64,000 bases of DNA from Geothrix oryzisoli (GTDB lineage Bacteria; Acidobacteriota; Holophagae; Holophagales; Holophagaceae), in NCBI RefSeq assembly GCF_022808865.1, contig NZ_JAKZLB010000002.1, positions 572,019-636,018 on the forward strand. Reading direction: 5' to 3'. This document shows, piece by piece, positions 4,427 through 11,876 of the stretch. A program made the position numbers and the translations under genes. The notes beneath the pieces were generated by a model. That model searched no databases. It worked only from the letters and a program-made list of their open reading frames with translations, and had not been told where the DNA came from. The number at the start of each line of letters is the position of its first letter. Position 1 is the stretch's first letter.

Positions 4427-6037
<1,611 letters not shown>

Positions 6038-6060
6038 CCTTCAAGGAAACCGGGACGCTT

Positions 6061-6091
6061 GTCGCGACAGAGGACCATCCTCTGTCGCGAC
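6061..6091. terminator. 31-nt perfect inverted repeat after pyrG
   Basis: A 14-bp perfect stem (6061-6074 with 6078-6091) with a CCA loop, 23 bases beyond pyrG. Each arm contains the self-complementary word GTCGCGAC. It probably terminates pyrG, but there is no T run on the plus side, so a protein-binding role is also possible. Confidence 0.6.
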
Positions 6092-6173
6092 GGCGTTTGC
6101 AAGGAATCTGAAAGGTTGGCGGTGGTCCAATGGGTCTGCCGCGAAGATTATCGATGGGTAATCTAACGAGGTA

Positions 6174-6213
6174 TTGAAATCTACCTACAAGTAATCTTTG
6201 ATGAATCGTCAAA
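6174..6213 (+). promoter_or_regulatory. Candidate promoter and operator of the acl-like operon
   Basis: The stretch 6140-6240 is markedly AT-rich for this genome. TTGAAA (6174-6179) and TTTGAT (6197-6202) are spaced 17 bases apart, a plausible but weak sigma-70 promoter with a leader of about 94 nt. A small inverted repeat, TTTGA/TCAAA (6197-6201 and 6209-6213), overlaps the -10 and start site and could be an operator. Apart from these and the repeat at 6061, I see nothing else in the 265-base gap between pyrG and the operon. Confidence 0.3.
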
Positions 6214-6302
6214 GGTGATCTTGATATCATTTATCTGGACCCGGTGCTCTCCAGACGGACCCGGCGCTCCAGTTCATTGCCAGAGTCGACCGAGGAGGGA
6301 CC

Positions 6303-7580
6303 ATGCAACTGTCGGGCTTGCGCTACGGCTCCAAGCTTTTGCAACTGGTTGAATTTCCCGTGGCGGATTTCATCGATGGGTCGGCTACCAACCCGGAGAT
6401 CCAGCAGTTCCTCGAGAAGCACAGGAAGCTGGTGGTGAAGCCCGCTTTCAACGGCGGCGTCGGCAAGAAGGGGAAGGCCGGACTGGTGCGCGTCGTGAGC
6501 ACGCTCCAGGAGGCCTTGCAGGCGAAGCGGGAGCTCTTTTTCGCCCAGCACACCTACGGCAACAAGCTGGTCACGGCCAACGGCGTGACCATGGAGGCCT
6601 TTGTCCCGTCCGATCTGGAGGTGTACTTCAGCATCATGAGCTCCAGCGAACACCGGGGCCCGGTGTTCACCATCACGCCCTGGGGCGGGGTGGACATCGA
6701 GGCCCTGCCGGCCGACAAGAAGCGGGTGGTGGAGATCGATCCCTTCATCGGGATCAACGCCTTCGAGATCACCAACGCCCTCACGGATACCGGCTGTCCC
6801 GAACCCTTCATCTCGGCCCTGGTCCAGCACCTCCCGAAGCTGTGGGAGCTCTATGACGGCTACGGCCTGACCACCATCGAGCTGAACCCCATCCGGGTCA
6901 TGCGGAAGGGGAACCAGCTGCTTCCCGTCGCCTGCGACGTGAAGGCCAGCTTCGACCAGGACAACCCGGCCTGGAAGCGCATCGGGCTGCCGGATGCCCT
7001 CTTCCAGACGGAGACGACGGCCTTCGAGGCTGACATCAACGAGCTGCGGACCTATCAGGGGCAGAGCGACGTGCTGGAGATGAATCCCCACGGGAGCATC
7101 ATCCCCTTCATGTTCGGCGGCGGCGCCAACAGTGCCGGCACGGAGACCCTCGGCGAGGCGGCCATCTTCTCGTCGGACTTCGGCGGCAACCCGCCCTACG
7201 AAAAGATCTACGAGATCAGCCGCATCACCTTCGAGCACTGGTACGACCAGGCCAGCATGCTGCTGCTCATCGGCGGCAAGGCGAACAACACGGATATCTA
7301 CGTGACCTTCAAGGGCGTGTTCGACGCCCTGAGGGACCACGTGGCGAAGGCCGGGTGGAAGCCGCTGTATGTGGTGATCGGGCGGGGCGGACCGAACGTC
7401 GTGAAGGGGATGTTCTACGCCAAGGACATCCTCGACCGCCTGCGCCTCCCCTACAAGGTGTTCGGCCACGACACCTCCATGATCCTCACGCTGGAATACG
7501 CGAAGCGGGTCGATGCCTGGTGGCGCGCGGAGGGCGCCAACGCCTACCGGAAACAGATCGAAACGCAGGTCCGGGCCTAG
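6303..7580 (+). CDS. ATP-citrate lyase, ATP-grasp/citrate-binding subunit (AclB-like)
   Basis: This 425-aa protein resembles the N-terminal third of animal ACLY and bacterial AclB. Residues 1 to about 245 are a succinyl-CoA-ligase-beta-type ATP-grasp domain (KLVVKPAFNGGVGKKGKAG early on; TTIELNPIRV further in). The rest is a citrate-binding Rossmann domain with FGGGANSAGTETLGE, an IGGKANNTDIYVTFKG block and RGGPN then VFGHDTSM. The family uses ATP to activate citrate toward citryl-CoA. A strong GAGGAGGG site precedes the ATG, and the partner subunit starts nine bases after the stop. The conserved citrate-binding motifs argue for a citrate-like substrate rather than succinate. Confidence 0.8.
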   Translation: MQLSGLRYGSKLLQLVEFPVADFIDGSATNPEIQQFLEKHRKLVVKPAFNGGVGKKGKAGLVRVVSTLQEALQAKRELFFAQHTYGNKLVTANGVTMEAFVPSDLEVYFSIMSSSEHRGPVFTITPWGGVDIEALPADKKRVVEIDPFIGINAFEITNALTDTGCPEPFISALVQHLPKLWELYDGYGLTTIELNPIRVMRKGNQLLPVACDVKASFDQDNPAWKRIGLPDALFQTETTAFEADINELRTYQGQSDVLEMNPHGSIIPFMFGGGANSAGTETLGEAAIFSSDFGGNPPYEKIYEISRITFEHWYDQASMLLLIGGKANNTDIYVTFKGVFDALRDHVAKAGWKPLYVVIGRGGPNVVKGMFYAKDILDRLRLPYKVFGHDTSMILTLEYAKRVDAWWRAEGANAYRKQIETQVRA

Positions 7581-7589
7581 GAGGGTGCC

Positions 7590-10316
7590 ATGCGACGGTT
7601 GAAGACGAAGCCTTTCCCCTACTACGTGGGCCTTCATTCCCTCGAAGAGCTCGTGACCCGGGAGCACCGGGTCTGCGTGATGAACATCCTGGGCAGCGAG
7701 AGCCGCAAGGTCACGCCGGTCTCCCACGAGTACAGCGGCGGCAACGTGGTGGCCGGCGTGCAGTACGGGCGCCGCGGCAGCCTCGAGACGAAGCTCGGCG
7801 CCATCCCCGTCTACCGCAGCATCCGCGAGGTCATGGAGAAGGGGATCACCTTCGACATGGGCGTGGTCTACATTCCGCCGCTCGGCGTGTGCAAGGCCGT
7901 CTCGGAGCTGGTGACCCACAACGAGGCCCTCAAGCGCATCGTCATCGTCACGGAGAAGGTGCCGGCGCGCGACTCGCGGAACATCCGGGCCCTCTGCCAG
8001 GAGGCGGGCGTGGATGTCATCGGCGCCAACTGCCTCGGCATGGCCAACGCCTGGGACCAGGTGCGCATCGGCGGGAGCCTGGGGGGAGACCACCCTGAGG
8101 AGACGCTGGTGAAGGGTTCCATCGCCATCCACTCCAATTCCGGCAACTTCACCACCACCATGGCGGAGTATCTGCGCACGGCGGGCTTCGGCATCAGCAC
8201 GGCGGTCTCCAGCGGCAAGGACGTCTACATCCACTTCGCCCTGCCCGAGTTCCTGTATGCCGCCCAGAACGACCCGCGCACCAAGGCCGTGGTCGTCTAT
8301 GTGGAACCCGGCGGCTACTACGAGAAGATGGCCCTGGACTGGATCCGCGACCGCGCCTTCGGCTTCACCAAGCCGATCATCGCCTGCGTCACCGGCCGCT
8401 GGAAGAAGAACATCACCAGGGCCTGCGGCCACGCCGGAGCGCTGTCGGGCAGCGGGGACGACGCCGAAAGCAAGGAGCGCTGGTTCGACGAGTACTTCGG
8501 GGTCGAGGTCTTCGATCCGAGCACCTGCAAGGTCAGCAAGCGGGGGGTGCGCGTCTCCAGCATCCAGTACATCCCGGACGCGGTGAAGGCGGTCTTCGAG
8601 AAGATCGACGAGAAGCCGGATTTCCCGTCGACGGGGGACCTGTCGCTCAAGCTCTGGCTGGGCGACACAATGGTGAAGCTGCCGCCCTTCCTCGAGCTGC
8701 CCATCGTCCAGGCGCCCGCACCCTACGACCAGCAGATCGTGGAGGTGAACAAGCAGGTGGGGGCCCACTACCTCCGGCAGAACATGGCCTGCAAGTCAGG
8801 GGCGTCCAGGATGAGTCCCGAGACCCAGGTGGCCGAGCTGCACGGGATGACCGTGCTGGAGCTGTCCCGGCGCACCCTCGAGGAGAACCTGTACTTCGCG
8901 CTGGCCAAGGTGATGCCGGAGAAGGCGGACATCCCCACGCTGAACCTGATCCTGAACCTGTTCATGAAGATCGATGAGCGGCGCATGGAGCTCATCGACG
9001 TGGGCCGGGCGAACGGCTGCACGCCCAACGCCTACCTGGCCTCCCAGATCGCATTGGTGGGAGACAAGGATCTGCTGGCGAAATCGCGGGAGCATGCGCG
9101 ATTCATCATCGACCTCATCCGGGAGTTCGGCCTGGATGAGCACACGAAGGCCTTTCCGCCCGAACTGGACGCCTTCGTCGAAACGCACCTCCTGCGGGCG
9201 GAGCCCTCCCGCAAGACGGACATCTCGGAGCTCCTCCTCAAGGAGGTGAAGCGCTCGAAGAAGTCCTGCGTGGCCCTGAAGGTCTGCCAGCACATCATCG
9301 ACCTGGCGGAAAAGCGGGGACTGGAGATCCGGGACGCCTACGAGTTCCTGCTGTCCACCATCGCAGTCTGCGTGCTCTGGAACCCGATGCTGGAGAAGCG
9401 CATCACCCGCCAGCTCGTCGAGGACTCGGTCACCTATTTCTACCTCATGTCGCGCATCGTGGCCTATTCGGTGGTGGCCCGGGAGCACAACCCGCACTGG
9501 AAGAAGCTGGTGGACCAGAAGCTGTCGAACCTCAACCACAGCTTCACGGAGAACGCCTTCAAGGTCCTGTTCAGCCGGGTGCCCAATCCATCGGAGCTCG
9601 TCGAGTTCCAGACGCTGCTGGGGCTCACCATCACCAACGGCCCCGGAACGCTGTCGGCGAAGGGGGCCAAGGAAAGCGTCAGCGCCCGGAACGACATCTC
9701 CATGGCCTTCGTGGGCTTCCTGGCCAACACGGGGCGCGCCCACGGCGGGAACGGCTATGAGGCCATCGAGTTCCTCGTCGAGCAGTTCAAGGATGTGGCG
9801 CTACCCGATCCAGGCGATCCCGGCCACGGCCTGGATCTCAAGCAGATGGCGAACCGGGCGGCGAAGGCCTACAGGGCCTACAAGAAGCAGGCCGTGGAAG
9901 TGGAGGATGGGCATGTCAAACCCATCCCCTGCATCAACCATCCCATCTTCCGCGGCAACAAGATCAACGTGGATCCGCGGGAGCAGTTCGTGGCCGGGGT
10001 GATGGCGGAGAAGGGCGTCTACAACGCTTTCTGGGAGTTCTACCACTTGCTGGTCCACGAACTCTACGACGAGGGTGCCACGAAGAGCGTCTTCTGCGTG
10101 AACGTGGATGCGGTGCTCGCGGTCATCACCCTGAAGCTGGTGTGGAAGGACCTTCAGGCCGGGCGGATCACCCTGCGTCAGGTCCAGGAGCTGGCCTTCA
10201 CGCTCTTCCTCTTCGGCCGGACCCTGGGCGTCAGCGCAGAGATCGCCGACCACCGGGACCGCGGCCTGGACATGGACTGCCGTACGCCTGAGCGGGACCT
10301 GGCCTTCGTCCTTTGA
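7590..10316 (+). CDS. ATP-citrate lyase, CoA-ligase plus citrate-synthase-like subunit (AclA-like, oversized)
   Basis: Partner of the preceding AclB-like subunit. Residues 1 to about 380 form a succinyl-CoA-synthetase-alpha-like CoA-binding and ligase region with the phospho-His site GHAGALSGSGDD (His281). The last 230 or so residues resemble the citrate-synthase-homology module that cleaves citryl-CoA: the ITNGPG block, a TGRAHGGNGYEA block, CINHP (His784) and NVDAVLAV (Asp840). Bacterial AclA is usually about 600 aa, and this protein has roughly 300 extra residues in the middle that I cannot place. As I recall the family, the first catalytic His lies in a DHGP motif; here the aligned residue is Asn683. 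Citryl-CoA synthesis seems likely. Lyase activity is less certain. Confidence 0.72.
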   Translation: MRRLKTKPFPYYVGLHSLEELVTREHRVCVMNILGSESRKVTPVSHEYSGGNVVAGVQYGRRGSLETKLGAIPVYRSIREVMEKGITFDMGVVYIPPLGVCKAVSELVTHNEALKRIVIVTEKVPARDSRNIRALCQEAGVDVIGANCLGMANAWDQVRIGGSLGGDHPEETLVKGSIAIHSNSGNFTTTMAEYLRTAGFGISTAVSSGKDVYIHFALPEFLYAAQNDPRTKAVVVYVEPGGYYEKMALDWIRDRAFGFTKPIIACVTGRWKKNITRACGHAGALSGSGDDAESKERWFDEYFGVEVFDPSTCKVSKRGVRVSSIQYIPDAVKAVFEKIDEKPDFPSTGDLSLKLWLGDTMVKLPPFLELPIVQAPAPYDQQIVEVNKQVGAHYLRQNMACKSGASRMSPETQVAELHGMTVLELSRRTLEENLYFALAKVMPEKADIPTLNLILNLFMKIDERRMELIDVGRANGCTPNAYLASQIALVGDKDLLAKSREHARFIIDLIREFGLDEHTKAFPPELDAFVETHLLRAEPSRKTDISELLLKEVKRSKKSCVALKVCQHIIDLAEKRGLEIRDAYEFLLSTIAVCVLWNPMLEKRITRQLVEDSVTYFYLMSRIVAYSVVAREHNPHWKKLVDQKLSNLNHSFTENAFKVLFSRVPNPSELVEFQTLLGLTITNGPGTLSAKGAKESVSARNDISMAFVGFLANTGRAHGGNGYEAIEFLVEQFKDVALPDPGDPGHGLDLKQMANRAAKAYRAYKKQAVEVEDGHVKPIPCINHPIFRGNKINVDPREQFVAGVMAEKGVYNAFWEFYHLLVHELYDEGATKSVFCVNVDAVLAVITLKLVWKDLQAGRITLRQVQELAFTLFLFGRTLGVSAEIADHRDRGLDMDCRTPERDLAFVL

Positions 10317-10327
10317 TGGTTCCTGGG

Positions 10328-10365
10328 CAGAAAAGGGGCGGGCCAGCTGGCCCGCCCCTTTTCTG
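10328..10365. terminator. Bidirectional terminator between the acl operon and gltA
   Basis: A perfect 38-nt palindrome with no loop bases in DNA. Each arm has a GC-rich core and an AAAA/TTTT base, so either transcript would form a hairpin followed by U residues. It sits 11 bases after the AclA-like stop and 17 bases beyond the gltA stop, and can serve both genes. Confidence 0.88.
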
Positions 10366-10382
10366 GTGAACGAAAGATCGGC

Positions 10383-11693
10383 CTACTTGCTTCCGCCCTT
10401 GGCGGCCCAATCCTCGAGCATGGCCGTGGTGACGGACTTCGGGCGTTCGAGCGCGTAACCCAGGGCGCGGTCCCAGGTGATGTTGGCCAGCACGCCGATG
10501 GCGCGGCCCACGCCGAAGAGCACGGTGTAGAAGTCGTACTCGGTGAGGCCGTAGTACCACTGGATGACACCGCTCTGGGCATCCACGTTGGGCCAGGGGT
10601 TCTTGGTCTTCCCCTGCTCGGTGAGCACGCCCGGGGCCACGTGGTAGATCATGTTGACCAGCTTGAAGAGCGGATCGTTGGGCAGATGCTTGAGGCAGAA
10701 CTCCATCTGCGCGGTGTAGCGGGGGTCGGTCTTGCGCAGCACGGCGTGACCGTAGCCGGGGATGACGTGGCCGCTGTTCAGCGTGTCCCAGAGGGCGGCC
10801 TTGACGTTCTCCTCGGTGGGCTCGGCGCCGTTGAGCTTCTTCTGGAAGTCCATGATCCACTGCAGCACTTCCTGGTTGGCCAGACCGTGGAGGGGGCCCG
10901 CGAGGCCATTGAGGCCGGCGCTGAAGGCGTAGTAGGCGTCGGACAGCGCGGAGGCCACCAGGTGGGTGGTGTGGGCGCTGACGTTGCCGCTCTCGTGGTC
11001 GCTGTGCAGGATGAAATACATGCGGGCCACGTCGTCATAGGGCTTGGCGATGCCCATCATGTGGGCGAAGTTGGCTCCCATGTCGAGGCTGTAGTCAGGG
11101 GCGATGATGTCGCCGTTCTTGTACTTGTAGCGGTAGATGAAGGCGGCGATCTCCGGCAGCTTGGCCAGCAGATCGCAGGCATCCTCGTAGGTGGTGTCCC
11201 AGTAGTCGTTCTTCTTCAGGCTGTGGTAGGCCTTGTTGAACTTGCTCTCCTTCTGCATGGCGAGCACGGCGGTGGAGAGCATCACCATGGGGTGGCTGTC
11301 CTTGGGCAGGGTCTTCAGCACGTCGAAGACATAGCCCGGAACCTTGGCGCGGGACTTGAAGTCCAGGCGGATCTCGTCGGCCTCTTCGGCCGTGGGGATC
11401 TCGCCGGTGAGCATGAAGAACCAGAAGGACTCCACGGTGGGGTACTCGGCGCCGGGCAGCTTGGGCAGGGCGGCGAAGGTCTCGGGGATGAGCTTGCCGC
11501 GGAACCGGATGCCCTCCTGGGAGTCCAGGTAGGAGATGTCAGTGACGAGACACTTGATGTCCCGGGCGCCGCCGATGCACTGGTCGATGGTCACCTCGTC
11601 GATGACCACCTTGCCGAACTCTTTCAGGAGCCGGGTGGTTCGAGGGCGATGTTCCTCAATCTTCTGTTGAAGACGGGTTTTGAGGCGTGTCAT
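10383..11693 (-). CDS. gltA: Citrate synthase, eukaryotic (mitochondrial-like) type
   Basis: Condenses oxaloacetate and acetyl-CoA in the TCA cycle. Motifs include HSDHESGNVSAHTTHLV, a PLHGLANQEV block, GHAVLRKTDPRY and FGVGRAIGVL, so all three expected catalytic regions are present. The long N-terminal helix region and overall sequence resemble mitochondrial enzymes, as known in Geobacter, rather than E. coli GltA. I chose the ATG at 11693 (436 aa) because GGAG sits six bases upstream; the ATG four codons earlier (11705) has no visible site. The gene is convergent with the ATP-citrate-lyase-like operon. Confidence 0.93.
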   Translation of the reverse strand: MTRLKTRLQQKIEEHRPRTTRLLKEFGKVVIDEVTIDQCIGGARDIKCLVTDISYLDSQEGIRFRGKLIPETFAALPKLPGAEYPTVESFWFFMLTGEIPTAEEADEIRLDFKSRAKVPGYVFDVLKTLPKDSHPMVMLSTAVLAMQKESKFNKAYHSLKKNDYWDTTYEDACDLLAKLPEIAAFIYRYKYKNGDIIAPDYSLDMGANFAHMMGIAKPYDDVARMYFILHSDHESGNVSAHTTHLVASALSDAYYAFSAGLNGLAGPLHGLANQEVLQWIMDFQKKLNGAEPTEENVKAALWDTLNSGHVIPGYGHAVLRKTDPRYTAQMEFCLKHLPNDPLFKLVNMIYHVAPGVLTEQGKTKNPWPNVDAQSGVIQWYYGLTEYDFYTVLFGVGRAIGVLANITWDRALGYALERPKSVTTAMLEDWAAKGGSK

Positions 11694-11876
11694 GGCTGGC
11701 TCCATGAAATGGGGAAGGGTGGATGGGGTGGCTTAGGAAGGAACAGGGGTCCGATCATCATACGGGCATCATCTATCGATGCGATGCCTTTCATTCTGTT
11801 TGATGACCACGTGGGAATTAATCGATCTGACCATGACCCATAATCCAGAGTATGGATGGAGCTGATAGGAGTTGCC

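Follow-up and report, generated by a model that had tools for sequence, protein, structure and literature searches.

The window examined here, a stretch of 64,000 nucleotides from Geothrix oryzisoli, contains two adjacent genes resembling those of ATP-citrate lyase (ACL), and the question it raises is what to make of an asparagine that the larger protein, AclA, has in place of the histidine of the DHGP motif. The gene pair encodes an ATP-citrate-lyase-type complex of the class already named type II, and AclA and AclB together are a real, intact and divergent enzyme of this named but poorly characterised class. The features listed in a preliminary description of the locus, namely 908 amino acids, an intact phospho-histidine at position 281, Asn683 within TNGP, His784 and Asp840, are all present in the open reading frame. 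Coordinates of these and of the other features are collected in Table 1.

Table 1. Features of the type II ACL locus, in window coordinates
Feature	Position	Strand	Description and evidence
aclB-like gene	6303..7580	+	425 aa, ATP-grasp and citrate-binding domain, partner subunit; PF16114 2.1e-16, PF08442 2.3e-14
AclB Asn329	7287..7289	+	position of human ACLY Phe347; Asn in 72/72 type II
aclA-like gene	7590..10316	+	908 aa; citryl-CoA-synthetase small-subunit-like half fused to citrate-synthase-fold half
AclA His281	8430..8432	+	phospho-histidine of synthetase half; GHAGA 63/63; pairs with SCS/CCS phospho-His motif
AclA residues 396-901	8775..10292	+	predicted complete citrate-synthase fold, including the 'extra' ~300 residues; AF2 pTM 0.86; 2c6x_A Z 26.9
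AclA Asn683 (TNGP; LTITNGPG)	9636..9638	+	position of CS His238 / ACLY DHGP His; 63/63; profile alignment
AclA His718 (AHGGNG)	9741..9743	+	position of CS His274, Phe in type I ACL; 63/63; profile alignment
AclA His784 (INHPIF)	9939..9941	+	position of CS His320; 63/63; profile alignment
AclA Arg797 (DPR)	9978..9980	+	position of CS Arg329; invariant, 47 aligned sequences; profile alignment
AclA Asp840 (NVDA)	10107..10109	+	position of CS Asp375; 63/63; profile alignment
AclA Arg877	10218..10220	+	position of CS Arg401; 63/63; profile alignment
ordinary citrate synthase gene	10383..11705	-	440 aa, convergent neighbour; PF00285 1.2e-96

The aclB-like gene sits just upstream of the aclA-like gene, and the two carry the synthetase and citrate synthase (CS) family domains of a type II pair: a domain search of AclA recognises CoA_binding and Succ_CoA_lig at residues 50-289 and the C-terminal domain of Citrate_synt at 620-887. 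The best PDB match of AclB is the large subunit of citryl-CoA synthetase (CCS; 6hxq_B, 8e-35), and both synthetase parts, AclB and the N-terminal half of AclA, match the Hydrogenobacter enzyme best in sequence as well as in fold. All the elements of such a synthetase are in place, that is, an ATP-grasp subunit, a CoA-binding subunit with its phospho-histidine, and the citrate loop, with the citrate-site motifs GGxANxTD and RGGPN retained. The Phe that type I enzymes have in this loop (3/3 type I loci and human ACLY) is absent, its place being taken by the invariant Asn329, and Hydrogenobacter CCS likewise has Asn there. With a CCS-like synthetase half and Asn at the Phe347 place, type II thus looks like a CCS joined to a lyase of the CS or citryl-CoA lyase (CCL) type.

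That the pair might belong to a known divergent class called type II had been raised in the preliminary description, and the gene pair, its domains and the published primer peptides do fit that class. The name goes back to Hugler and Sievert 2011, according to the passages that cite it in PMC3522073, PMC6783814 and PMC6315080, and type II ACL has been reported from tubeworm symbionts and from Magnetococcus (Mmc1_3638/3639) in the same three papers. It is termed putative or postulated (PMC3522073, PMC6783814); no purified type II ACL was found in the literature checked, nor any paper tying Geothrix to the class. The published primers encode VAKEEWF and NGFEAIA (PMC3522073), and the counterparts in AclA are KERWF at 295-299, a partial match to the former, and NGYEAIE at 721-727. 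The site of the reverse primer coincides exactly with aclA codon 721, with 3 mismatches, the forward primer has no DNA-level match in the window, and in the relatives L066, L073 and L080 the two best primer sites lie 1.3 kb apart.

Asn683 is kept in all 63 aligned AclA sequences and is therefore neither a sequencing error nor the result of drift; judged from this conservation, it is a mark of the class and no lesion or defect. Its surroundings were compared by profile-profile alignment (hhalign) of type II AclA with 29 citrate synthases (prob 95%), in which Asn683 falls on the His of SDHE, and the invariant His718, overlooked in the preliminary description, falls on the His of LHG. The remaining pairings are those of Table 1; they are given in the numbering of pig citrate synthase, and we take His238, His274, His320, Arg329, Asp375 and Arg401 to be the residues in the aligned columns. 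The triad His274/His320/Asp375 thus has its counterparts in AclA, and His238 has none. Against the CCL-family and type I profiles, Asn683 pairs with the His of DHG or DHGP and His718 with HGG or RFGG, the match of type II to type I being weak by itself (prob 14%, with a shallow type I profile). Type I AclA of the Bacteroidota phylum reads DHGP and GPRFGG, and stand-alone proteins of the CCL family, with DHG and HGG, have both histidines. Type II, on these alignments, keeps the citrate synthase triad and lacks the DHGP His (His900 of ACLY), type I shows the reverse, and each ACL type is therefore without one His common to CS and CCL; of the two, it is type II that appears to retain the textbook triad. 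The earlier statement that the lyase half differs from ACLY in its residue set is borne out, with TNGP and AHGGNG against DHGP and RFGG. That description had also taken another His in the active site as evidence against impaired cleavage: His718 supplies one at the level of profile alignment.

Structures were predicted from window and locus sequences only. The AF2 model of AclA residues 378-908 alone has a mean pLDDT of 84, and its module (~396-901) superimposes on residues 7-354 of the citrate synthase 2c6x_A with 335 of 363 residues aligned (rmsd 3.5, 15% identity). The best 50 fold matches are citrate or methylcitrate synthases, aligned from ~396 to 901, and Foldseek agrees; CCL 6hxp and the type I modules fall outside these best 50, though either may resemble the module as well. 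In predicted AclA, pLDDT drops below 50 in the loop that follows Asn683 (688-696) and at the C-terminus (893-908). The fold match from ~396 onwards suggests that residues 396-640 form the N-terminal half of a citrate synthase. By sequence, the C-terminal profile gives weak matches in the PDB, and residues 400-491 match the N-terminal part of CS weakly. A second, degenerate CS-like unit, which had been proposed for residues ~380-680, is rejected, the prediction showing a single complete fold and the stretch corresponding to the N-terminal half of an ordinary CS; the repeated SFxExAFxxLFN-like motif is seen within ordinary CS as well (profile alignment). The protein differs from a stand-alone citrate synthase in being fused to CCS-like domains with a phospho-histidine, and from the compact lyase module of type I (AclA ~610 aa) in having a full-length CS fold. 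In a tree of the lyase domains of CS, CCL, type I and type II, the type I, type II and CS groups each receive 100% support, and the placement of type II with CCL or CS has a support of 45.

From the gene pair, its conservation, the alignment positions, the predicted fold and the distribution, all computed here, we infer the activity, the chemistry and the direction in Geothrix. The best explanation as a whole, and in our judgement a probable one, is that the pair is a type II ACL in which the CCS-like half makes citryl-CoA and the CS-like half cleaves it. The conserved sites suggest that AclB and the N-terminal half of AclA act as a citryl-CoA synthetase, in which ATP would phosphorylate His281, the phosphate would move to citrate bound in the citrate site of AclB, and reaction with CoA would then yield citryl-CoA. 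Cleavage would follow in the CS-like half by the chemistry of citrate synthase in reverse, Asn683 merely helping to hold the oxaloacetate part, as His238 does in CS. That the module is the cleavage site is suggested by the CCS-like synthetase half together with the conserved triad. In another account, the second model put forward for human ACLY (PMC10115795), cleavage would take place in the synthetase half, and the C-terminal module would be a relay for CoA and acetyl-CoA and an allosteric part. Cryo-EM and LC-MS of the D1026A variant favour the relay for ACLY itself (PMC10115795), but the model makes use of the movement of Phe347 (PMC10115795), for which type II has Asn, and all type II sequences have the full CS triad, so that we regard its extension to type II as unlikely.

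Desulfobacter provides a link to physiology. D. postgatei uses ATP-citrate lyase in the citric acid cycle by which it oxidises acetate (Moller et al. 1987, as cited in a passage of PMC12137691), and in two Desulfobacter genomes neither a PF00285 protein besides type II AclA nor a type I AclA was found, though a Re-citrate synthase may be encoded there. Of their type II AclAs, the Pfam model detects one and the other falls below detection. A normal ACL with the same Asn, which the preliminary description had named as evidence against its own suspicion, is thereby found indirectly, in an ACL user in which the search of the CS family finds only type II. That suspicion was that the Asn makes cleavage slow or absent, or calls for another subunit, the complex then halting at citryl-CoA or relying on a separate lyase. 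It draws on proposals that count the DHGP His among the catalytic residues of ACLY, but the Asn and the CS triad are both invariant in sequences from many phyla, and the two Desulfobacter genomes have no other PF00285 protein to do the cleavage; a defective lyase is consequently very improbable. Absence of the DHGP His in 63/63 with retention of the triad suggests instead that the type II enzyme is probably fully active and built differently from the human-type ACL. In Magnetococcus MC-1, where citrate cleavage has been detected, the sole candidate for it is the type II pair (PMC6783814).

Plasmid homologues, alpha- and betaproteobacterial and 42-45% identical to the Geothrix AclA, adjoin transporter genes. 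The acl pair lies beside TctA/TctB (tctA/tctB) and a two-component sensor pair on a Microvirga plasmid, beside an MFS transporter and dctA on plasmids of Burkholderiaceae, and near the tricarballylate genes tcuA/tcuB, a 4-oxalomesaconate tautomerase and a tripartite tricarboxylate transporter on a Gemmobacter plasmid. That the type II pair is a working ACL appears supported because ACL-using Desulfobacter (two genomes) have no other CS-family protein and because these plasmid homologues adjoin tricarboxylate transporters. The Gemmobacter neighbours, together with the methylcitrate synthases among the best fold matches, might also point to a complex whose main substrate is not citrate but another tricarboxylic acid resembling tricarballylate or methylcitrate. 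This is improbable, since the AclB citrate-binding motifs are retained, Desulfobacter depends on an ACL for citrate, the only one found there being of type II, and the tcu pathway itself gives cis-aconitate and hence citrate. A gene for an acyl-CoA thioesterase accompanies the pair in Gemmobacter, where it overlaps the end of aclA (L147:9702-10088), and in Microvirga, where it lies nearby (L080:4911-5288); its product perhaps releases acetate or hydrolyses an acyl-CoA product. On the Aminobacter plasmid pUSP3 (L076:10001-16210), a CBASS phospholipase and a nucleotidyltransferase are annotated near the acl pair.

The reaction of a type II ACL would be reversible, so that the enzyme could take part in citrate breakdown or in a reductive TCA cycle, or, as in Desulfobacter, make citrate with a yield of ATP. 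The host genome contains aconitases and two 2-oxoacid:ferredoxin oxidoreductases, so both citrate breakdown and a reductive branch are possible. The ordinary citrate synthase gene lies 66 bp downstream of aclA in the opposite orientation; the acl pair is therefore not essential for making citrate here, which, like the absence of the gene from 11 of 21 genomes of the genus, weighs against the best explanation, and we infer that the lyase direction is likelier in this host, probably a heterotrophic soil or aquifer bacterium of the iron-reducing type. Geothrix fermentans reportedly ferments citrate (Coates et al. 1999), for which the literature checked gave no confirmation, and the AclA of its strain DSM 14018 is a close match among named genomes (96% identity).

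Within the genus the gene is unevenly distributed: aclA is present in 10 of the 21 sampled genomes and absent from the other 11, and was not found in six other genomes of the same family, while a copy with 68% identity occurs in a single genome that belongs to a different family of the phylum. Both of the acl-less genus genomes that were checked (L142, L143) have argS, pyrG, citrate synthase and lysS in the same order, pyrG adjoining the convergent citrate synthase; the pair has thus been cleanly inserted or lost between these two genes. The block concerned is 6037-10383 of the window. Relatives of AclA occur in MAGs and genomes labelled Ignavibacteria and other Bacteroidota, KSB1, Calditrichota and Planctomycetota, and further in those labelled Krumholzibacteriia, SAR324 and Desulfobacter. 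A MAG labelled Myxococcales (L052) has AclBA 85-90% identical to the Geothrix pair but without its Geothrix neighbours, owing either to recent transfer or to a binning error. The SAR324 genome (L066, G302) has a type II AclA; a clear citrate synthase was not found in it, and two weak CS-family ORFs of 321 and 360 aa lie close together on contig C18:80379-82072 (L141).

The role of the CS-like part of ACL is disputed, the alternatives being citryl-CoA cleavage and a CoA relay only (PMC10115795). The main points of this analysis are the reciprocal lack of a His, the full CS fold to which the extra residues belong and Asn at the place of ACLY Phe347, none of which was found in the literature checked, Verschueren et al. 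2019 and Hugler and Sievert 2011 being outside it. They make the dispute testable in a natural variant, since type II keeps the CS triad and has neither the DHGP His nor Phe347. It is conceivable, at somewhat less than even chances, that type II was built independently, from a citryl-CoA synthetase and a complete CS-fold module running citrate synthase backwards, and that type I has a compact module in which His274 was lost instead of His238. If so, the two types would be mirror-image natural experiments on which His cleavage needs. These features also bear on the kinship of citrate synthase, citryl-CoA lyase and ACL, and the signature of TNGP and AHGGNG in AclA with GGKANNTD in AclB would help to annotate type II ACLs, which are labelled 'CoA-binding protein' or 'hypothetical protein' in plasmid records.

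Compared with known systems, the Geothrix pair shares with described type II ACL the aclB-aclA arrangement, the primer peptides and an occurrence in Desulfobacter and further lineages that lie outside type I; no feature compared, namely the gene arrangement, the domains and the primer peptides, separates the two, and the Geothrix host, a probable heterotroph, has the gene of an ordinary citrate synthase next to the pair. With type I ACL (AclAB, human ACLY) it has in common the domain order from synthetase to CS-family module, the phospho-histidine, and the His and Asp of the module (His975 and Asp1026 in ACLY). Type I combines DHGP and RFGG with a compact module (AclA of 609-620 aa) and has Phe at position 347 of ACLY, whereas the Geothrix pair has TNGP, AHGGNG, a predicted full CS fold (908 aa) and Asn. 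Hydrogenobacter CCS and CCL (6hxq, 6hxp) resemble it in the synthetase half, which is closest to CCS, in the Asn at the Phe347 place and in the HGG of the lyase, but the lyase CCL stands apart as a compact protein that has both histidines (DHG, HGG), and the Geothrix AclA is fused, of CS length, and has Asn for the DHG His. Finally, citrate synthase shares the whole predicted fold of the C-terminal module, the triad His274/His320/Asp375, Arg329 and Arg401, and differs in keeping His238, in having no synthetase fusion and in an identity of ~15%.
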